IMG/VR virus record: IMGVR_UViG_3300011114_000166
Coordinates: 1 to 24,452 of that record
Direction: 5' to 3' (one strand)
DNA length: 24,452 nt
DNA from: a virus
Notes under the pieces: model-generated
Seen by the model: only the letters and a program-made list of their open reading frames with translations
What the model was told of the DNA's origin: nothing
Database searches by the model: none
Translations under genes and position numbers: made by a program
Shown here: one piece after another, positions 1,967 to 17,806 of the stretch
Position numbering within the stretch: the stretch's first letter is position 1
How the letters are laid out: the number at the start of each line of letters is the position of its first letter

Positions 1967-3664
1967 ATGGCAGATTCTTTATATTCTGGCTTTAATGGAT
2001 TATTTGGGCAGTATGGTCAATATCAAGATTTATACAATGATCCAGAGGTTTCTGCCTTTAACGTAAATGTGAATACACGTCCAGGGTATGGAAATGCTGT
2101 GCCAATGAATCCATATGTTTATCCAATGCCTTTCCCATCTTTATCTGATGCGGAAAACATTTCAAGAGATGGGAATGTCACACCTATTTCATTGATGACA
2201 ACAGTTGCACCAGTGGATGTTCTCAGTGACCGCAATAGAAGAATACAGGCAATTGATCAGCGCATTGCAAATTCACCAATTCCAATTGAACCTTATGTGA
2301 GTCCCAAAATGGCAGATACACAAACAAACTCTAGTTTTATGGATAACCTTGGCGGCCTGTTGTTTGGCGGTGGAGGTGATGGCATGGAAGGTTATCTGTC
2401 AGAGAAACAGCAAAAGGCCATCCAGAATCAAGCAATGATGCAGGCCGCAGCCTCACTGCTTAAATCAAGTGGTAGGACAACGCAACCCATCTCAATAGGT
2501 CAGGCATTGGGTGAGGCATACGGCGCTGGCACAGCCGGTTATCAGCAGGCGCAGCAGGGTGCTATCCAGCAGCTGATAACAAAGCAGAAACTGGATGAAA
2601 TGAAACGCGCACAGGCGCAGCAGCAGGCATATCAGAACTTCTTGATGGGTCAGCCTACCGCTGGTACTGAGATCACGCCACAGCAGGCTTTGTCAGTACC
2701 AGGTATGCAAGTTGGCCCAACCGTTGAACGTGCTGCGATGATCGGTCAGCCGATGCCGTCTGATGGCACTGCAACTGGTGGCGCATCAGTATTGACACCA
2801 ATGCAACGCGCCATGTTGTCTCAATTGTCAGCAGACAAGGGTATCCCTGAAATGTTGAAATTGACTCAGCCAACAGAGAAAGCCAAGTTGTTGGCAGAAC
2901 TTGGAATGAAACCTACGTTGGAGAATCTGCGCCTGCTTGAAAAGCCAGAGGCTGATCCTGAAAAAATTAAATATTTGAAGGCATTGAATATGCCTATCAC
3001 GCTTGAGAATTTACGTCAGTTGGATAAGCCAGAGGCTTTGCCACATGAGATTCAATTGCTCAAGGCTACAAATATGCCAATTACATTTGAAAATGTTCAA
3101 GCAATTCGCAAGTCTGCGGCAGCAAATGTAACTGTTGATACAGGTCAAAAAGGATTTGAAAACAAGATGACCGCCAAGAAGACATTCATGTCTGAGCCGA
3201 TCTATAAAGATTTCAACGACATGAAGTCTGCCTATGGACAAGTACTGACTGCACTTGATCAAGGCTCACCAATTGGTGATGTTGCTGGCGCTACCAAGGT
3301 CATGAAATTGCTTGATCCTGGCTCTGTTGTACGCGAGTCTGAATTGGGTATTGCGATGGCGGCATCAGGCCGTATGGACAGACTTAAATTTTATTTCAAC
3401 AATTGGGCGACAGGTGAGAAACTGACACCTACACAACGCGAAGACTTCAAACAATTGTCAAACGAGTTGTATGCGGCTGCTGGTCAGGCTTACAACCAGA
3501 AGCGTGGTGAATACATTGACTTTGGTAATAGCACTGGAGTGACTTTGGATAAGGCACTTGGTGAGCCTGCAAAGCTACCGTCAATTGTCAGAACACCTGG
3601 CGCTAATGCTCCACCGATAAATATTCAAGATATATTGAACAAATATCCAGCAAGGAAACCGTAA
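1967..3664 (+). CDS. Large virion-module protein with 28-residue repeats (565 aa)
   Basis: GAGGTG at 1957-1962 precedes the ATG. The N-terminal 120 residues are Asn/Tyr/Pro-rich and AT-rich at DNA level. A Gln/Ala-rich helical middle follows (about 140-220). Residues 304-387 then form three tandem 28-residue units, each with a pattern like LLK-A-NMPITLENLRQL-KPEA, and a degenerate copy may lie just before. The C-terminal part (about 395-540) looks like a folded helical domain and ends in a Pro-rich tail. The gene shares TAATG with the next one. Position and composition fit an ejection or internal head protein, but the exact role is unknown. The AT-rich 5' part suggests mosaic origin. Confidence 0.65.
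   Translation: MADSLYSGFNGLFGQYGQYQDLYNDPEVSAFNVNVNTRPGYGNAVPMNPYVYPMPFPSLSDAENISRDGNVTPISLMTTVAPVDVLSDRNRRIQAIDQRIANSPIPIEPYVSPKMADTQTNSSFMDNLGGLLFGGGGDGMEGYLSEKQQKAIQNQAMMQAAASLLKSSGRTTQPISIGQALGEAYGAGTAGYQQAQQGAIQQLITKQKLDEMKRAQAQQQAYQNFLMGQPTAGTEITPQQALSVPGMQVGPTVERAAMIGQPMPSDGTATGGASVLTPMQRAMLSQLSADKGIPEMLKLTQPTEKAKLLAELGMKPTLENLRLLEKPEADPEKIKYLKALNMPITLENLRQLDKPEALPHEIQLLKATNMPITFENVQAIRKSAAANVTVDTGQKGFENKMTAKKTFMSEPIYKDFNDMKSAYGQVLTALDQGSPIGDVAGATKVMKLLDPGSVVRESELGIAMAASGRMDRLKFYFNNWATGEKLTPTQREDFKQLSNELYAAAGQAYNQKRGEYIDFGNSTGVTLDKALGEPAKLPSIVRTPGANAPPINIQDILNKYPARKP
2876..3127 (+). repeat. Three tandem 84-base coding repeats (28 aa each)
   Basis: Units at residues 304-331, 332-359 and 360-387 of the 565-aa protein align without gaps. 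Conserved positions include Leu-x3-x-Met-x-Pro-Thr/Ile-x-Leu/Phe-Glu-Asn-Leu/Val and Lys-Pro-Glu-Ala. The third unit is the most diverged. The pattern suggests two-helix repeats stacked into a short solenoid. Confidence 0.75.
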
Positions 3665-5529: not shown

Positions 5530-7023
5530 ATGGCAGACAACCTACAAGCCACACCGCGCAACGAGTTGCTGGGACTCTTATCTGATGCCATGTATGGTGG
5601 TCTGGATTGGATGAAGTCTCCGCAAAGAGCGCAACAGATGCAAGGCTTGGCGGGTCTGCTGGAATCTACTGGCATTCCGAAAACCACTCAGCGCATGGCG
5701 TATGGTGAGCCACTCACCAACATTGGCCGAGCCAATGTGCCATTGCTCAAACCTGAGACTGCTGATGCCTTAATGAATGTTGCGCCATTTGCGCCAGTGG
5801 TGGGTAGATTGGCGAGTCGTGCTATTCGCGCCACTGAGGGTATGCCTGTTGGGATGAGTATTAAAGCGGTTAAAACTCCACAAGAGGCAGCTTTAGAGTT
5901 AGCAAAACAAAATGCAATGCAAACTGGTCAATCTTTAGATCCATATCCAAGATCATTGCAACAAGGGTATGAGCATGATTGGTATCACGGTTCTACTGGG
6001 GATATAACCAATTTTAATCCAAATTTGCTTGGTGAAGCCACTGGCGCTCAAAGTGCAAAAAAAGGATTTTTCTTTGCTAGAGACCCTCAAAATCCTCCTG
6101 CATCAATGATGACAAGAACAACAGATCAATCAAGTATTGATATGCTTAAAAAATTAGGCATACCTGATGATCAAATTGCCAAATTAAATCAAGTTTCAAT
6201 GCAAGGACATGGGGCAGAAACCGCATCTGGATATGCTCAGATTGGCGGTTCTAGAGAATACAGAGAAGCTATGCGTAAAGCAAAATCAGCAGAAAAGCGT
6301 GGCGATTGGAACGAACACGACAAGCAAATGCAAATTGCGGAAGATTCTGAAATACAAAGAATGCAAGAAGCACAATCTTTGGTTGCAAAGTATGGTGATA
6401 CCAGAGACACCATGACCGAAAAGATTAACCAAACATTTTACAGTTTGCAACATCCACAAGCGCAAGCTGAATTGTTAGATAAGAAATATAAAGAATTAAT
6501 GCCTTATGGTTGGTATAACAGTTATTCAGATGCCCAACTCAAAGGATTAAAAAAAGAAATAAGCCAATTAGTTGGTGAAGATGCAGCTAAATCTGCAATA
6601 AACGAAATAGATAAATTTAGAGCTGTTAAGAATGAACGTGCTCTTATTGAAAAAACCCAAACAGGTGGCAACGTCATGCCTGTTGCATTACGCTACAAAA
6701 ACCCTATGGTTCATGACTTTGGCGGCAAATCATATAGAGAGCAAACATATTCTGATTTGATTGATCAGGCTTTGGCTGGCGGTCATGATGCTTTGATATT
6801 GAAAAACACATTTGATCCTGGCGGTGGCCCTGCAAAACTAGTAGATGTTGGGGTTGTCTTTAAACCCGATCAGATAAGATCTAAATTTGCCGCCTTTGAC
6901 CCATTGCGTAAAGACGTTGCAACAGCAATTGCTGCGGGAGTTGCATTGCCTGATCTATTGGCGGCAGAGCCTACAACAGAAGAATTGCAGCGCCGTCAGC
7001 CAGCTTCCTTGCTATTCCCATAA
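5530..7023 (+). CDS. Putative virion-associated ADP-ribosyltransferase-like protein (497 aa)
   Basis: AAGGA at 5516-5520 lies nine bases before the ATG. The N-terminal 105 residues look like a structural or docking segment matching the GC-richer style of the neighbouring gene. Then come W151-Y152-H153-G154-S155 and K178-GFFFARDP, which resemble the first (HG) and second (G-Y-F-A) motifs of PARP/diphtheria-toxin-type ADP-ribosyltransferases. The C-terminal part has HDALILKN (419-426) and VGVVFKPDQIRSKFAAFDP (440-458), the typical closing segment of ART-like toxin and polyvalent-protein domains. The catalytic third position may be Gln448 instead of Glu; this is not settled. Such domains transfer ADP-ribose from NAD to protein or nucleic acid. 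Position in the ejection block suggests delivery with the DNA, as with T4 Alt (inference). The ART part is markedly AT-rich, suggesting separate acquisition. Confidence 0.6.
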   Translation: MADNLQATPRNELLGLLSDAMYGGLDWMKSPQRAQQMQGLAGLLESTGIPKTTQRMAYGEPLTNIGRANVPLLKPETADALMNVAPFAPVVGRLASRAIRATEGMPVGMSIKAVKTPQEAALELAKQNAMQTGQSLDPYPRSLQQGYEHDWYHGSTGDITNFNPNLLGEATGAQSAKKGFFFARDPQNPPASMMTRTTDQSSIDMLKKLGIPDDQIAKLNQVSMQGHGAETASGYAQIGGSREYREAMRKAKSAEKRGDWNEHDKQMQIAEDSEIQRMQEAQSLVAKYGDTRDTMTEKINQTFYSLQHPQAQAELLDKKYKELMPYGWYNSYSDAQLKGLKKEISQLVGEDAAKSAINEIDKFRAVKNERALIEKTQTGGNVMPVALRYKNPMVHDFGGKSYREQTYSDLIDQALAGGHDALILKNTFDPGGGPAKLVDVGVVFKPDQIRSKFAAFDPLRKDVATAIAAGVALPDLLAAEPTTEELQRRQPASLLFP

Positions 7024-12611: not shown

Positions 12612-14693
12612 ATGCAAGCAGAACAAATAGCCAAGACGCTCGGCAACGCAAAGAAAGCAAATGGTCAGTGGGTAGCCAGCTGCCCTGTACCTGGTCACGG
12701 CAAAGGCAATGGCGACAAGAATCCATCTCTCAGCATAGACATCAATGATGACGGCAAACCGCTGTTCCACTGTCACGGTGGATGCTCACAGGAGGACGTG
12801 TTCCAGACCATCAGGGAATTGCACCTGTTGCCGGAACTCATGGAGCGCCCCAATCCACTCGCCAACATCAAACCGATACCGCGCAACGTCTTAGAACAAG
12901 AGTGGCAATATCAGGACGAGGACAGGCAGACGGTGTTCGTCAAGCAGCGGTACAAGGTAGGCGAGACAGGGAAAACCTACCGGCTGTACAAGGTTGACGC
13001 TGACGGCCGCAGGCATTCAACACTTGGCGATGCACGCATAGTCCCGTACAACTTACCCGCGCTGCTGGACGCGAAGACGGCAGGCAGGAACATTTTCTTG
13101 GTGGAAGGCGAAAAAGCAGCGGATGCCATCACAAGCATTGGCATGATTGCAACCACCGCGCACACTGGCGCCGGATCATGGCCTGCGGCCATCACCGAGT
13201 ACTTCGCTGGCGCTCAGGTCATCATCCTGCCGGACAACGATGTACCAGGCTGGCAGTACGCGCACAAGGCAGCCGCCGCCATATTGCCCATCGCCAAGTC
13301 GGTCAAGGTAGTTGACCTCGGGCTGCAAGGGCAGGGCGATGATGCCTATGAATTCATTGAGGCTGGCGCGGGTAGAGAGAAGCTGGTGGCGCTGGTCAAG
13401 GCAGCGCAAATCATCACCAGCGTGGATCAGGTAACGATGCCCGAACGATTGAATCCGATCACCAATGAAGTGCAAACAGCAACACCGCCAGCGGAGGACA
13501 TCGCTAAGGAATTTGAGTCAGAGCCAGCGCCACCGATTCCCACCAAGCCGCCAAAGCAGATCAATATTGAGCATTGGGACTCAATACAAGACGAGCCGGT
13601 GAAGTGGATGATTGACAAGGTGCTGCCGGTGGGATCGTTTAGCGCGTTATTCGGGCCGCCAGGCTCATTCAAGTCGTTCATTGCCTTGGACATTGCCGAG
13701 GCGATAGCGACCGGCAGGACGTGGATGGGCAATCAGGTGACAGAGTCCGGCGCGGTGCTGTACCTGTGCGGGGAAGGGTTCGGTGGAGTAGGCGCAAGGA
13801 TCAAGGCCATCAAGCAGCACCACGGCACCGAGGACGGTGCACCGATCTACGTCATCCGGCACCAACTCAACCTCAGATCAAGCGTGGAGGACTTCAACGC
13901 GCTGATGATCGCAGTGGAAAACCTTGTCACTGAACTCGGCATCGATTTCAAGCTGATCATCATCGACACCTTAGCCAGAGCCTTTGGCGGCGGCAACGAG
14001 AACGACTCCAGCGATATGGGATCGTTTATCTCCAGCTGCGGACGCATCCAGCAGATCGTTCAGGACTGCGCCTTGATGATCTTGCACCACAGTGGAAAGG
14101 ATGCCACCAAAGGACTGCGCGGCCACTCCAGCCTCTTAGGCGCGGTAGATACAGAACTGGAACTGATCCGCTTTGAGGACTCCATGAAAGGCATTATCCG
14201 CACGGCCAAGCAGAAGGACGGCGAGGACGGCACAAGAATCGGCTTTGAGATGGTCAAAGTCGAACTCGCGCCGCCAGCTGGATCACTGCAAATAGGCGAG
14301 CCGATCACCAGTCTGGCGGTACAGGCATCAGATTCAGCCAAAAATGATCACGCAAAAATGACCGAGCCAAAAGCTCCAGCCAACAAAGGTGGTGGCAAAT
14401 GGCAGATATATGAGATTCCATCGCTTTATCGAGCAATTAAGAATAAGGGTTTCATTGAGGATGTAAATGGGGTCAGCATGAAAGTGGTAAAAATTGATGA
14501 TTGGAAGGAAGAATTTATACGCCAAGCCAGTGCCTCGGATGCATCAAAGACGCAGATAAATAACGCAATTTATGAAGCGAAGAAGCGACTCAAGGGAAAT
14601 AATTCGGGTGGACATTACGACAAAGTGGCATGGCTCAGTCAAGATGTCATGACGAAAATAGCAAATGAAACAGCGTACAGTTTTAATAAGTAA
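12612..14693 (+). CDS. Bifunctional primase-helicase: zinc finger, TOPRIM, RecA-like ATPase (693 aa)
   Basis: Domains in order are as follows. A zinc-binding site (C24-x4-H29 and H53-C54-H55-x2-C58) leads. A TOPRIM domain follows with VEGEKAADAI (E165/E167) and ILPDNDVPG (D208-x-D210), the primase metal site. An acidic/Pro-rich linker spans about 270-325. A RepA/RecA-like hexameric helicase ATPase comes next, with Walker A GPPGSFKS (348-355), Walker B LIIID (448-452), and a sensor region LHHSGKDATKG followed by GHSSLLGAVD. The C-terminal 110 residues look like a helical or winged domain. It would prime and unwind phage DNA. The start lacks a clear ribosome site. It directly precedes the repeat cluster at 14694, a natural binding region. 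Confidence 0.85.
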   Translation: MQAEQIAKTLGNAKKANGQWVASCPVPGHGKGNGDKNPSLSIDINDDGKPLFHCHGGCSQEDVFQTIRELHLLPELMERPNPLANIKPIPRNVLEQEWQYQDEDRQTVFVKQRYKVGETGKTYRLYKVDADGRRHSTLGDARIVPYNLPALLDAKTAGRNIFLVEGEKAADAITSIGMIATTAHTGAGSWPAAITEYFAGAQVIILPDNDVPGWQYAHKAAAAILPIAKSVKVVDLGLQGQGDDAYEFIEAGAGREKLVALVKAAQIITSVDQVTMPERLNPITNEVQTATPPAEDIAKEFESEPAPPIPTKPPKQINIEHWDSIQDEPVKWMIDKVLPVGSFSALFGPPGSFKSFIALDIAEAIATGRTWMGNQVTESGAVLYLCGEGFGGVGARIKAIKQHHGTEDGAPIYVIRHQLNLRSSVEDFNALMIAVENLVTELGIDFKLIIIDTLARAFGGGNENDSSDMGSFISSCGRIQQIVQDCALMILHHSGKDATKGLRGHSSLLGAVDTELELIRFEDSMKGIIRTAKQKDGEDGTRIGFEMVKVELAPPAGSLQIGEPITSLAVQASDSAKNDHAKMTEPKAPANKGGGKWQIYEIPSLYRAIKNKGFIEDVNGVSMKVVKIDDWKEEFIRQASASDASKTQINNAIYEAKKRLKGNNSGGHYDKVAWLSQDVMTKIANETAYSFNK

Positions 14694-14798: not shown

Positions 14799-14834
14799 CA
14801 GACGCTTCAGTGAATTTTGATAAGGAGAACAGAA

Positions 14835-15518
14835 ATGGCAACAAAGCAAAAGAGCAGACAGCATCCACCAGCAACGAGTCCAATCCAACAAGCAGACCCT
14901 TGGACGATTTACGTTCAATCCAAACTGGTGGAACTGGAGTCAGCCAAGGCGGTCAGCGACAGGAAATGGGGAGAAAATCGACTGATTACTTTAGTTGACA
15001 GTGGGCTGAGAGAAAAATTCTGGATTCAGAACGCCAGATTGCAGCAAGCAATCACGGCAAAGGATCAGGCGAAATTCGATTCAAGCCTGGCGGGAATGAT
15101 CAGGGCGTATGGCGTGCTGGATCAGTGGGCAGCCGATCAAGGCATAACGCCAGCCAGCGACAGCATCCCAAGGATTGAGTGGGAGATGCAAAACGGCCAG
15201 GTCATGGTGATCACCAGAACTGTCAACGAGGCCGTGGCAATACAGCGGGAGCGTCAAGACATCAGCAATCAGAACATCTGGAGCATGGAAGAGATCGAGG
15301 CACTGATGGCCGATGAGCGTATGCAACAGGTCATCAAGATCAAAGCACTATTCCCAACGGCCAAAGTCACAGCATTCAAACCGACATCAGAATTCAAGCT
15401 GGGCGGTGCAACAGGATTTGATGACTTTGAAAACGACTTGAAATTCGATGACAATGAAGTCATGGAAAAGAAATTCGACACCAAACTCGCAGGAAGGCTC
15501 AAGAATGCAGCGAATTAA
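14835..15518 (+). CDS. Hypothetical protein between replication and packaging genes (227 aa)
   Basis: AAGGAG lies seven bases before the ATG at 14835, better than an earlier in-frame alternative start. The protein begins MATKQKSRQHPPATSPIQQA, followed by a helical body (WTIYVQSKLVELESAKAVSD and a second pair of helices around residues 60-105). It ends in a charged tail with FDDFENDLKFDDNEVMEKKF. No catalytic motif or membrane segment is visible, and I do not recognise the family. It lies between the iteron-like cluster and the small terminase subunit, so a role in replication or packaging initiation is plausible but unproven. Confidence 0.7.
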   Translation: MATKQKSRQHPPATSPIQQADPWTIYVQSKLVELESAKAVSDRKWGENRLITLVDSGLREKFWIQNARLQQAITAKDQAKFDSSLAGMIRAYGVLDQWAADQGITPASDSIPRIEWEMQNGQVMVITRTVNEAVAIQRERQDISNQNIWSMEEIEALMADERMQQVIKIKALFPTAKVTAFKPTSEFKLGGATGFDDFENDLKFDDNEVMEKKFDTKLAGRLKNAAN

Positions 15519-15575: not shown

Positions 15576-16007
15576 GTGGCAGGAAGACCGAAATTCAGAC
15601 AGGACATGGCTCTGCTTGAGGATCTGCCTCACGACATGATCGTGTCCATGTTTGAGGCAGGCAAGTCACAGACCACGATCTGCTACGAACTTGGCATCGG
15701 GCGCAGGGCGCTAGAGCAATGGATCGAAGATACCGATCCCTCTATAATTGCGCGTGCGCGCGCGATAGCCGCCGATAAGTTGGCGGTAGAGACAATGTCC
15801 ATTGCGGATGACATGGACGTGGAGCATCCGCAGCGCGATGTCCAGCGCATCAGAACGAGGCAGTGGCTGGCCGAGCGATGGGATCAGAAGACTTACGGCC
15901 TACAAAAAGCAGCCTCGATCAACATCAACATCCAAGATTTACGCATGGCGGCACTGCGCCATGTTGAGGTTGTCGATGAGTTATCCACAGGCGATAGGCA
16001 CGATTAA
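15576..16007 (+). CDS. terS: Terminase small subunit (143 aa)
   Basis: The start is GTG at 15576 with AGGAGGG eight bases upstream. Residues about 28-52 form the DNA-recognition HTH (AGKSQTTICYELGIGRRALE, then QWIED). The conserved helical stretch DPSIIARARAIAADKLAVET follows, with MSIADDMD and VQRIRTRQWLAERWDQKTYG. This is the layout of Sf6/P22-type small terminase subunits, which bind the packaging site and form a ring that recruits the large subunit. Unusually, the large subunit gene does not follow directly; a 317-base non-coding stretch with DnaA boxes lies between, and the first box is inside the last codons of this gene. Confidence 0.8.
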   Translation: MAGRPKFRQDMALLEDLPHDMIVSMFEAGKSQTTICYELGIGRRALEQWIEDTDPSIIARARAIAADKLAVETMSIADDMDVEHPQRDVQRIRTRQWLAERWDQKTYGLQKAASININIQDLRMAALRHVEVVDELSTGDRHD

Positions 16008-16010
16008 GCC

Positions 16011-16094
16011 ATGATTGAACACATTGCCCTGTGGATAACGCAACTCTGCCTGTTTGTTGAGCAAATACTGGTCAGTTATCCACAATTGACTTAA
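16011..16094 (+). CDS. Doubtful 27-aa frame within the DnaA-box region
   Basis: The frame reads MIEHIALWITQLCLFVEQIL and seven further residues, moderately hydrophobic. It has no good ribosome site and two DnaA boxes lie in it. It is listed only because it fills part of an otherwise gene-free gap. It is more likely non-coding. Confidence 0.15.
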   Translation: MIEHIALWITQLCLFVEQILVSYPQLT

Positions 16095-16114
16095 CATAAT
16101 GGACATCGTATTAA
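16086..16114 (+). promoter_or_regulatory. Promoter candidate upstream of the large terminase gene
   Basis: TTGACT (16086-16091) and TATTAA (16109-16114) are 17 bases apart, directly beside the third DnaA box. It could start late transcription or an origin-activating transcript. A DnaA-bound state would overlap it. The distance to the terL start is about 200 bases. Confidence 0.4.
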
Positions 16115-16324
16115 ATGGAATATGTCAGCATTCTGTAAGAAAGCATATAGATCAATGACTTGCATGAATAGTGGATTGTGGATAACTTCCAGCGGTAAAG
16201 TGGCCGCGGCTGGCGCTGGAGCGTGCCGCTGGCTGTGGGCGGCGATGACCCCCCCCCTTGCGCGATTTCGGCGGGGGCGGCTGAAGATGCAACCGAACAC
16301 CTACCGAATCCCACAGCCTGACGT

Positions 16325-17806
16325 ATGCCGAACATGACCGACCCCCTACCCCTAGCCCCCACAAAGCCGCGCATCCCGAAAAAAAAATCCGATGACTTGC
16401 TGGTAAACAATCCATTTGTTGAATTCGTCAAGCTGTACAAGAACAACCCTGTACTCTTCGTCAGAGAGGTGCTGAACACTGAGCCTGACCCGTGGCAGGT
16501 GGAATTCTTGAATCACATTGCCAAGGGCAACCGGCGTATCTCTGTCAGATCAGGCCATGGCGTTGGGAAGTCCACGGCCAGTGCCTGGGCGATGATCTGG
16601 TACTTGTTGCTGAGATTTCCGGTAAAGGTGGTGGTGACGGCACCAACGAGCAGCCAGCTGTATGACGCGCTGTTTGCGGAGGTCAAGCGGTGGGTGAAGG
16701 TGCTGCCGCCGATGCTGGCTGATATGTTGGAGGTGAAGCAGGACCGCATTGAGGTGAAGGATGCCAACGAGGAGGCGTTTATCTCAGCCAGGACATCGAG
16801 GGCAGAGCAGCCGGAAGCCTTGCAAGGCGTACACAGCGACCATGTGATGCTGGTGGGGGACGAGGCCAGCGGTATACCGGAGAAGGTGTTTGAGGCGGCC
16901 AGCGGAAGTATGTCCGGCCATAACGCCGTCACGTTGCTGCTGGGAAATCCGGTAAGGAGTAGCGGGTTCTTCTATGACACCCATAACCGTCTGGCGGGGG
17001 ATTGGGTGACCATGAAGGTTTCCTGCGCCGACTCGCCGAGGGTGTCTGAGGCTTACATTGAGGAGATGAAAGCGCGGTATGGCGAAGAGTCAAACGCCTA
17101 CCGAATTCGCGTGCTGGGGGAATTCCCAAGGAGTGACGAGGACACCGTTATACCCATGGAGTTGCTGGACTTGGCGATGAATCGGGATGTAGTGGCCTCA
17201 CCTTACGCGCCGCTGGTCTGGGGATTGGACGTTGCACGCTTTGGCTCTGACCGCTCGGCGCTGTGCAAGCGGCGGGGGAACGCGGTGACTGAGCCGATCA
17301 AGACGTGGAAGAATTTGGACTTGATGCAGCTGACGGGCGCGGTAGTGGTTGAGTTTGAGGCGTTGCCGCCAAGCGACAGACCCGAAGAGATACTGGTTGA
17401 CAGCATTGGGCTTGGTGCCGGAGTCGTGGATCGGTTGAAAGAGTTGGGACTGCCTGCACGCGGAATCAACGTCAGCGAGAGTCCGGCCATGGGCGGGACG
17501 TATCGGAATCTGAAGGCCGAGCTTTGGTACAAGGCCAAGGCGTGGCTAGAGCAGCGGGATTGTCGGCTGCCAAAGGATGAGCTACTGGTGGCCGAGTTGG
17601 CGACCGTTCGGTATATGTTTACGTCCAACGGCAAGATTCAGATTGAGAGCAAGGACGAGATCAAGAAGCGCGGTTTAGCCTCACCGGACAAGGCTGATGC
17701 ATTCTGCTTGACGTTTGCAAGTGACGCTGTAATCGGCATGATGGGGTCTAAAGCCAGCACCAAGTGGGGGCAACCGCTGAAAAGAAACCTGTCTAGGGTT
17801 GCATAA
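16325..17806 (+). CDS. terL: Terminase large subunit, ATPase and nuclease (493 aa)
   Basis: The N-terminal ATPase has Walker A SGHGVGKS (76-83) and Walker B VMLVGDE (174-180), with the coupling segment LLLGNP near 205-209. The C-terminal RNase H-like nuclease has D302 (WGLDVARFG), D359 (ILVDSIGLG) and D458 (SPDKADAF) as metal ligands. It cuts concatemers and pumps DNA into the head through the portal. Length and motifs are normal. The start is ATG 16325 or 16334; neither has a good ribosome site. A nine-A run at 16379-16387 encodes three Lys in the disordered N-terminus. It begins the packaging and head block. Confidence 0.9.
   Translation: MPNMTDPLPLAPTKPRIPKKKSDDLLVNNPFVEFVKLYKNNPVLFVREVLNTEPDPWQVEFLNHIAKGNRRISVRSGHGVGKSTASAWAMIWYLLLRFPVKVVVTAPTSSQLYDALFAEVKRWVKVLPPMLADMLEVKQDRIEVKDANEEAFISARTSRAEQPEALQGVHSDHVMLVGDEASGIPEKVFEAASGSMSGHNAVTLLLGNPVRSSGFFYDTHNRLAGDWVTMKVSCADSPRVSEAYIEEMKARYGEESNAYRIRVLGEFPRSDEDTVIPMELLDLAMNRDVVASPYAPLVWGLDVARFGSDRSALCKRRGNAVTEPIKTWKNLDLMQLTGAVVVEFEALPPSDRPEEILVDSIGLGAGVVDRLKELGLPARGINVSESPAMGGTYRNLKAELWYKAKAWLEQRDCRLPKDELLVAELATVRYMFTSNGKIQIESKDEIKKRGLASPDKADAFCLTFASDAVIGMMGSKASTKWGQPLKRNLSRVA

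Follow-up and report, generated by a model that had tools for sequence, protein, structure and literature searches.

A predicted psi-like Xer site among DnaA boxes beside the terminase genes of a freshwater tailed phage and its relatives

Introduction

At the replication origins RK2 oriV, P1 oriR and F oriS, several consensus DnaA boxes occur together with an IHF-type site and AT-rich DNA, close to replication genes. Sites for the host recombinases XerC and XerD are built from two 11-bp arms, with conserved and partly palindromic inner bases, and a centre of 6-8 bp (PMC11724359). The Xer complexes of plasmids are shaped by ArgR/ArcA and PepA, and the loxP site of phage P1 lies opposite the P1 origin (PMC11724359). 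In the attP sites of IMEX, the central hexamer shows a defined pattern of match and mismatch (PMC5357621). Phage Xer sites have so far been known mainly from small integrating phages.

Here, a locus at the terminase genes of IMG/VR virus record IMGVR_UViG_3300011114_000166 was compared with these systems. The whole stretch analysed, 24,452 nucleotides, is referred to as the window.

Results

DnaA boxes at the terminase genes

Exact copies of TTATCCACA are found in the window at 15981-15989 (box 1, plus strand), 16030-16038 (box 2, minus strand), 16076-16084 (box 3, plus strand) and 16177-16185 (box 4, minus strand), and therefore the four perfect boxes in two inward-facing pairs of the original prediction were recovered, all inside 205 bp. 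No further exact copy of TTATCCACA exists elsewhere in the 24,452-base virus record; by chance, TTATNCACA would be expected 0.81 times in the whole 24.5 kb, and at least four copies appeared in 1 of 100 shuffles. The prediction had also placed the boxes between terS and terL. This holds for boxes 2, 3 and 4, whereas box 1 lies within the 3' end of terS (15576-16007, plus strand), which encodes an Sf6-type small terminase (PF20901, E=1.4e-11). The large terminase gene terL follows at 16325-17806 on the same strand (phrog_2, E=8e-48). The gap between both genes, which had been described as unusual, is normal in the family, as every testable TerL-defined relative has one.

A search with TerL yielded about 600 related viral contigs, which are often fragments and are not independent samples. 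Several contigs wrap around, so the genomes, of about 34-37 kb, are circular or circularly permuted. One 55.5-kb contig (G036, L211-L213), in which a 9.7-kb stretch is repeated at 99.9% before the sequence diverges, may be a chimera formed from two phage strains. When the core was scanned for, the element came up in four lineages: A, to which the window belongs; B, with related replication genes and rearranged boxes; C, with a TerL 30% identical; and D, with different replication genes and an Xer site, described below, without boxes at the locus.

The boxes recur at fixed spacings in dozens of relatives, with 46 bp from box 2 to box 3, 101 bp from box 3 to box 4, and either 38 or 49 bp, an 11-bp step, from box 1 to box 2. 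The codons TTA-TCC-ACA (Leu-Ser-Thr) that contain box 1 are 100% identical in 82 distinct terS genes, whereas at conserved 4-6-fold codons the top codon accounts for a mean fraction of 0.69. Box 2 appears in relatives almost only as TTATCCACA, TTGTCCACA or TTATGCACA, mostly changes of a kind that DnaA tolerates. Among 92 unique element sequences, box 3 is TTATCCACA in 62, and box 4 is TTATCCACA in 36 and ATATCCACA in 14. The boxes are not universal, given that an L061-type subgroup keeps box 1 alone exactly. In the other element-bearing genomes, complete or partial, exact boxes are confined to the locus apart from a few strays, one in each of the two lineage-D genomes (none at the locus) and one in G014. 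The frozen terS codons, the restricted box 2 variants and the fixed distances together argue that the box cluster is under selection as DNA sites, as would be expected of a DnaA origin, and the proposed comparison of boxes with their flanks in relatives thus came out clearly in favour of the boxes.

The original prediction had considered that the cluster could act as a sink that titrates host DnaA and so blocks host replication. Consensus boxes on a replicon that is multi-copy during infection would suit such a role. Against it, there are just 0-4 exact boxes per genome and almost none elsewhere, and their fixed geometry around an internal Xer site argues for a nucleoprotein complex, which leaves the sink with little support and makes it extremely improbable.

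A predicted Xer site between boxes 3 and 4

The AT-rich core noted in the original prediction ranks within the least stable 0.2% of window sequence, and it is more than an AT-rich stretch, since between boxes 3 and 4 it contains a dif-like site that had been missed. This predicted XerCD (dif/psi-like) site, at 16089-16116 on the minus strand and 4 bp from box 3, consists of the XerC arm ATTTAATACGA, the centre TGTCCA and the XerD arm TTATGTTAAGT, an architecture that follows the rules given in PMC11724359. When 25 dif sites were tried, the best match was that of Rhodoferax ferrireducens (ACTTGATACGA TGTATA TTATGTTAAGT), itself a prediction (PMC2731167), with 24 of 28 positions identical, including 20 of the 22 arm positions. 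Elsewhere in the window the highest value was 18/28, and the maximum in 200 simulated windows was 20/28, reached once. The core also shares TCCATTATGTTAA with psi of pSC101.

The site was present in all 67 testable TerL-defined relatives, with 16-20 of 22 arm positions identical. The most conserved block of the alignment, TTAACATAATGGACATCGTRTTAA, lies between boxes 3 and 4 and persists where both are lost. The XerD arm is more conserved than the XerC arm, TTATGTTAA being nearly invariant, and the XerC arm is variable except at its inner end. The central hexamers were TGTCCA (50), TCACTA (8), TGTTCA (5), TGACTA (3) and GGTTCA (1); the host hexamer TGTATA was found in none of the 67, the host type being here the single published Comamonadaceae dif compared. 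On these features, 16089-16116 reads as a XerCD recombination site of the psi/dif kind, with XerCD binding and recombination predicted. Its arms match the dif type of the presumed Comamonadaceae host, whereas its central hexamer does not. The host of the window phage is probably a member of the Comamonadaceae, judging from that one dif; the bacterial genomes gave no route to a host name, as no bacterial centre was usable.

Two further sequences lie on the XerC side of the site, where no recognised ArgR/ArcA site was established. The first is an 11-bp-spaced direct repeat, TGTCAG-N5-TGTAAG (16123-16139, plus strand), a candidate site for an accessory protein, which is kept in most of lineages A, B and C and is absent in the L061-type subgroup and in lineage D. 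The second is a predicted IHF-type site, GATCAATGACTTG (16150-16162, plus strand). Many relatives have AATCAAYGACTTA, which fits WATCAANNNNTTR, and the window copy deviates at the first base; the ATCAA is nearly invariant in the alignment and stays even where boxes 3 and 4 are lost.

These sequences bear on the possibility that boxes and IHF site are architectural, making Xer recombination directional in place of the ArgR/ArcA and PepA of cer and psi. In having such sites for proteins next to the XerC arm, the locus is reminiscent of the accessory sequences reported in PMC11724359. The distances from boxes to core, about -111/-100, -62, -16 and +85, are fixed in lineage A and partly in C, and the shift of box 1 by 11 bp corresponds to one helical turn; such fixed spacing fits an origin equally. 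The boxes are rearranged in lineage B, however, and some relatives keep the Xer site without boxes. We know of no case in which DnaA acts as an Xer accessory protein, and this role is considered quite unlikely.

Replication genes and other features around the locus

A gene for a primase-helicase of the RepA/AAA_25 type (12612-14693, plus strand; PF13481, E=3.9e-37; phrog_906) lies 1.4 kb upstream of the Xer site. Of the 15 genomes with the element, 13 encode the same primase-helicase at a distance of about 1.3-1.4 kb, lineage D not being among them. When the proteins of genome G005 were scanned with Pfam, no recombinase, ParA/ParB, plasmid Rep or DNA polymerase family was detected, and thus the plasmid Rep and partition genes of a phage-plasmid were not found in this set.

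The consensus boxes, the IHF-type site, the easily melted DNA, the adjoining primase-helicase and the lack of a detected polymerase make an origin dependent on host DnaA the simplest reading of the boxes, and a plausible one, as the original prediction had supposed. Easily melted DNA and the IHF site are found in the window and in most relatives, low stability being missing in G013, G022 and G036. The GC skew suggested as a check gave the origin no support: no switch was seen at the locus, which counts for little because skew here follows gene direction.

Control of terL by DnaA, with the region serving as a promoter or late-gene switch, was also considered. DnaA is known to act as a transcription factor and, in the window, the region is directly upstream of terL. 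However, in lineage C the whole element is turned round with respect to both the primase-helicase and terL, as would be expected for an origin or a recombination site and not for a promoter, and another gene sits between the element and terL. Moreover, the invariant part of the region is the palindromic Xer core, not a promoter, and regulation of terL is accordingly a very improbable function.

Between the primase-helicase and terS, a conserved protein is encoded at 14817-15518 (plus strand). Its 46 homologues belong to lineages A and B, plus a few others. The fold matches and relatives of this protein are viral only, and one relative is annotated as terminase small subunit. It was tried as a candidate initiator and rejected (mean pLDDT 73.6, no PDB match).

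Other features of the window were recorded. A C-run/G-run inverted repeat (C8/G5; 16250-16280, plus strand) just upstream of terL is conserved through the relatives and also in phage C72C1. The terS codons for QRDVQRI (cagcgcgatgtccagcgcatc, 15831-15851) have near-invariant synonymous sites in 82 terS genes, and this stretch is a candidate pac or other DNA site. A large ORF at 5530-7023 gave a weak match to an ADP-ribosyltransferase (ART-PolyVal, E=7.5e-4, below the curated cut-off). An Rfam search of the window matched no known RNA. The KOPS motif (GGGNAGGG) was tried as a sign of FtsK control and rejected, its polarity (18 toward versus 14 away) being not significant.

Related sites in other phages and plasmids

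The 231-bp region had no direct similarity to phage and plasmid records. At the level of the Xer site, phage C72C1 (TerL 47%) carries TTGTCGCATAA CGTCCA TTATGTAATCT in its terS-terL gap. The 72 contigs of C72C1 type mostly have a dif-like site 114-346 bp before terL, with a mean best arm score of 16.2, compared with 13.1 in a control stretch. Many of them have alphaproteobacterial-type arms and variable hexamers, and DnaA boxes are few or absent. A generic pattern, in which NGTCCA was prescribed as the hexamer so that hexamer frequency is no evidence, matched 45 contigs; in two thirds of these a related terL lies close by. A site of this kind next to terL occurs in many other aquatic phages, where the arms are those of other bacterial groups and boxes are scarce or missing. 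Because the Xer site of lineage D and of the C72C1-type phages is accompanied by at most a few boxes, the two halves of the locus can be separated, and the role as origin would be specific to one clade.

The E. coli phage-plasmid p48, which encodes RepA, ParA, ParB-domain proteins and virion genes, has GGTGCCGATAA CGTCCA TTATGTTAAAT 1.4 kb after repA. In the prophage G037, whose integrase was judged from sequence and place, such a site lies between terS and terL. The plasmid p48 (L365, NZ_CP023368, 2179-2245) and G037 have a short Xer-site element in common; this stretch of p48 matches 106 plasmid records, and Klebsiella phage Mulock carries a related one in its terL-portal gap.

The Comamonadaceae arm type of the window is shared by eight inovirus contigs (L220-L227) whose hexamer is the host TGTATA and which thus contain an exact Comamonadaceae-type dif (GATACGATGTATATTATGTTAA); they were found by a pattern that demanded TGTATA. 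A second, partial site is present in some of these inovirus-like contigs. No convincing dif-like site was found in the known Comamonadaceae phage P26059B or in the distant relative MW202879 (L232), which in its place has a gamma-delta resolvase near repA and terS; two exact TTATCCACA boxes lie at 3059 and 3179 of MW202879, near repA and the resolvase gene. Integrases are present in the more distant relatives phiM5 and MW202496.

These data were weighed for a role of the Xer site as attP, by which XerC would integrate the phage at the host dif, as in IMEX, with the DnaA and IHF sites serving excision or replication. The arms are almost identical to a Comamonadaceae dif, the TGT on the XerC side of the hexamer is that of the host while the XerD side differs, as described for VGJphi, no integrase family was seen in the Pfam scan of G005, and inoviruses of the same collection carry an exact host-type dif. 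However, when 84,980 bacterial genomes were searched, the exact core, including the hybrid with the host XerC arm expected after integration, was found in none, so that no integrated copy at a host dif was recovered; two peptide patterns detected no TerL relative in them either, in a collection that holds one genome per species and could miss rare prophages. Moreover, the TGT match with the one host-type dif compared, seen in most relatives, is lost in those with TCACTA or TGACTA, and an integrase-bearing prophage (G037) and a circular phage-plasmid carry such a site as well. Integration through the site is therefore considered unlikely.

Recombination between copies of the site on phage DNA is favoured over integration, because no TerL-defined relative has the hexamer of the one published host-type dif, because the exact core is absent from all 84,980 genomes, and because p48 and G037, replicons that do not need Xer for integration, have closely similar sites. 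The inoviruses of the same arm type, by contrast, do carry the host hexamer, and the sequence shared with pSC101 psi points the same way.

Discussion

The reading preferred here, to which we assign a probability of about 0.5, is that the locus is a composite, plasmid-like maintenance site made from host signals, a psi-like Xer site combined with a DnaA/IHF origin. It is close to the plasmid-like maintenance of the original prediction, from which the most conserved part, the Xer site, was missing. XerCD and DnaA binding, the outcome of recombination, origin activity and the host family are all points that we infer.

According to this proposal, host XerC and XerD would recombine two copies of the site on the same phage DNA, turning dimers and multimers into monomers, circularising a terminally redundant genome after entry, or both. 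The circularisation step would resemble that of P1 lox and would be helped by the place beside terS, and the mismatched hexamer would discourage insertion into the host dif. In the freshwater clade, three or four boxes, the IHF-type site and the easily melted DNA would form a replication origin, at which host DnaA and IHF could open the DNA and so give access to the primase-helicase of the phage and the polymerase of the host. As the packaging of concatemers needs no monomers, a resolution site implies a circular, plasmid-like stage, against which stands the absence of any partition or plasmid Rep gene found.

A bolder version, which we hold to be doubtful, is that XerCD recombination is controlled by host DnaA and IHF, bound at set distances from a host-matched Xer site, which would couple monomerisation or circularisation to the host initiator, or that the locus is an origin plus a resolution site. 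If the boxes do act with the Xer site, replication initiation and dimer resolution would be linked in one 205-bp element.

Returning to the composite maintenance site, the fixed place of an Xer site, with arms of host dif type but a non-host hexamer, next to the terminase genes in tailed phages that are abundant in aquatic habitats suggests a widespread life-cycle step that depends on the host. Such phages are known almost only from metagenomes, and the site makes a circular, plasmid-like stage in them a suspicion that can be tested. From the arms there is also a clue to the host, Comamonadaceae here and alphaproteobacterial types elsewhere. In this widespread freshwater phage, host proteins seem to serve both for starting replication of the circular genome and for keeping that genome single.

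Among known systems, the predicted site resembles psi (pSC101) and cer (ColE1) in its host-type arms, its non-dif centre and the extra protein-binding DNA on the XerC side. It differs in lying on a tailed phage, in the terminase region, where DnaA boxes and an IHF-type site flank it in the place of any known site for ArgR/ArcA. With the attP of CTXphi, VGJphi and other IMEX it shares a dif-like phage site for host XerCD with the XerC-side half of the hexamer matched and the XerD side mismatched. However, the phages of the window group are tailed, their hexamer varies, no integrated copies of them were found, and similar sites are carried by a phage-plasmid and an integrase-bearing prophage. 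RK2 oriV, P1 oriR and F oriS have in common with the window the consensus boxes, the IHF-type site and AT-rich DNA near replication genes, whereas the window has no detected iteron array or Rep initiator and holds an Xer site in its AT-rich core. Finally, as with P1 loxP and Cre, a site-specific recombination site is proposed to keep a phage genome monomeric or circular. The window phage would use host XerCD instead of a phage recombinase, and its site, unlike the P1 loxP opposite the origin, lies inside the cluster of DnaA boxes.
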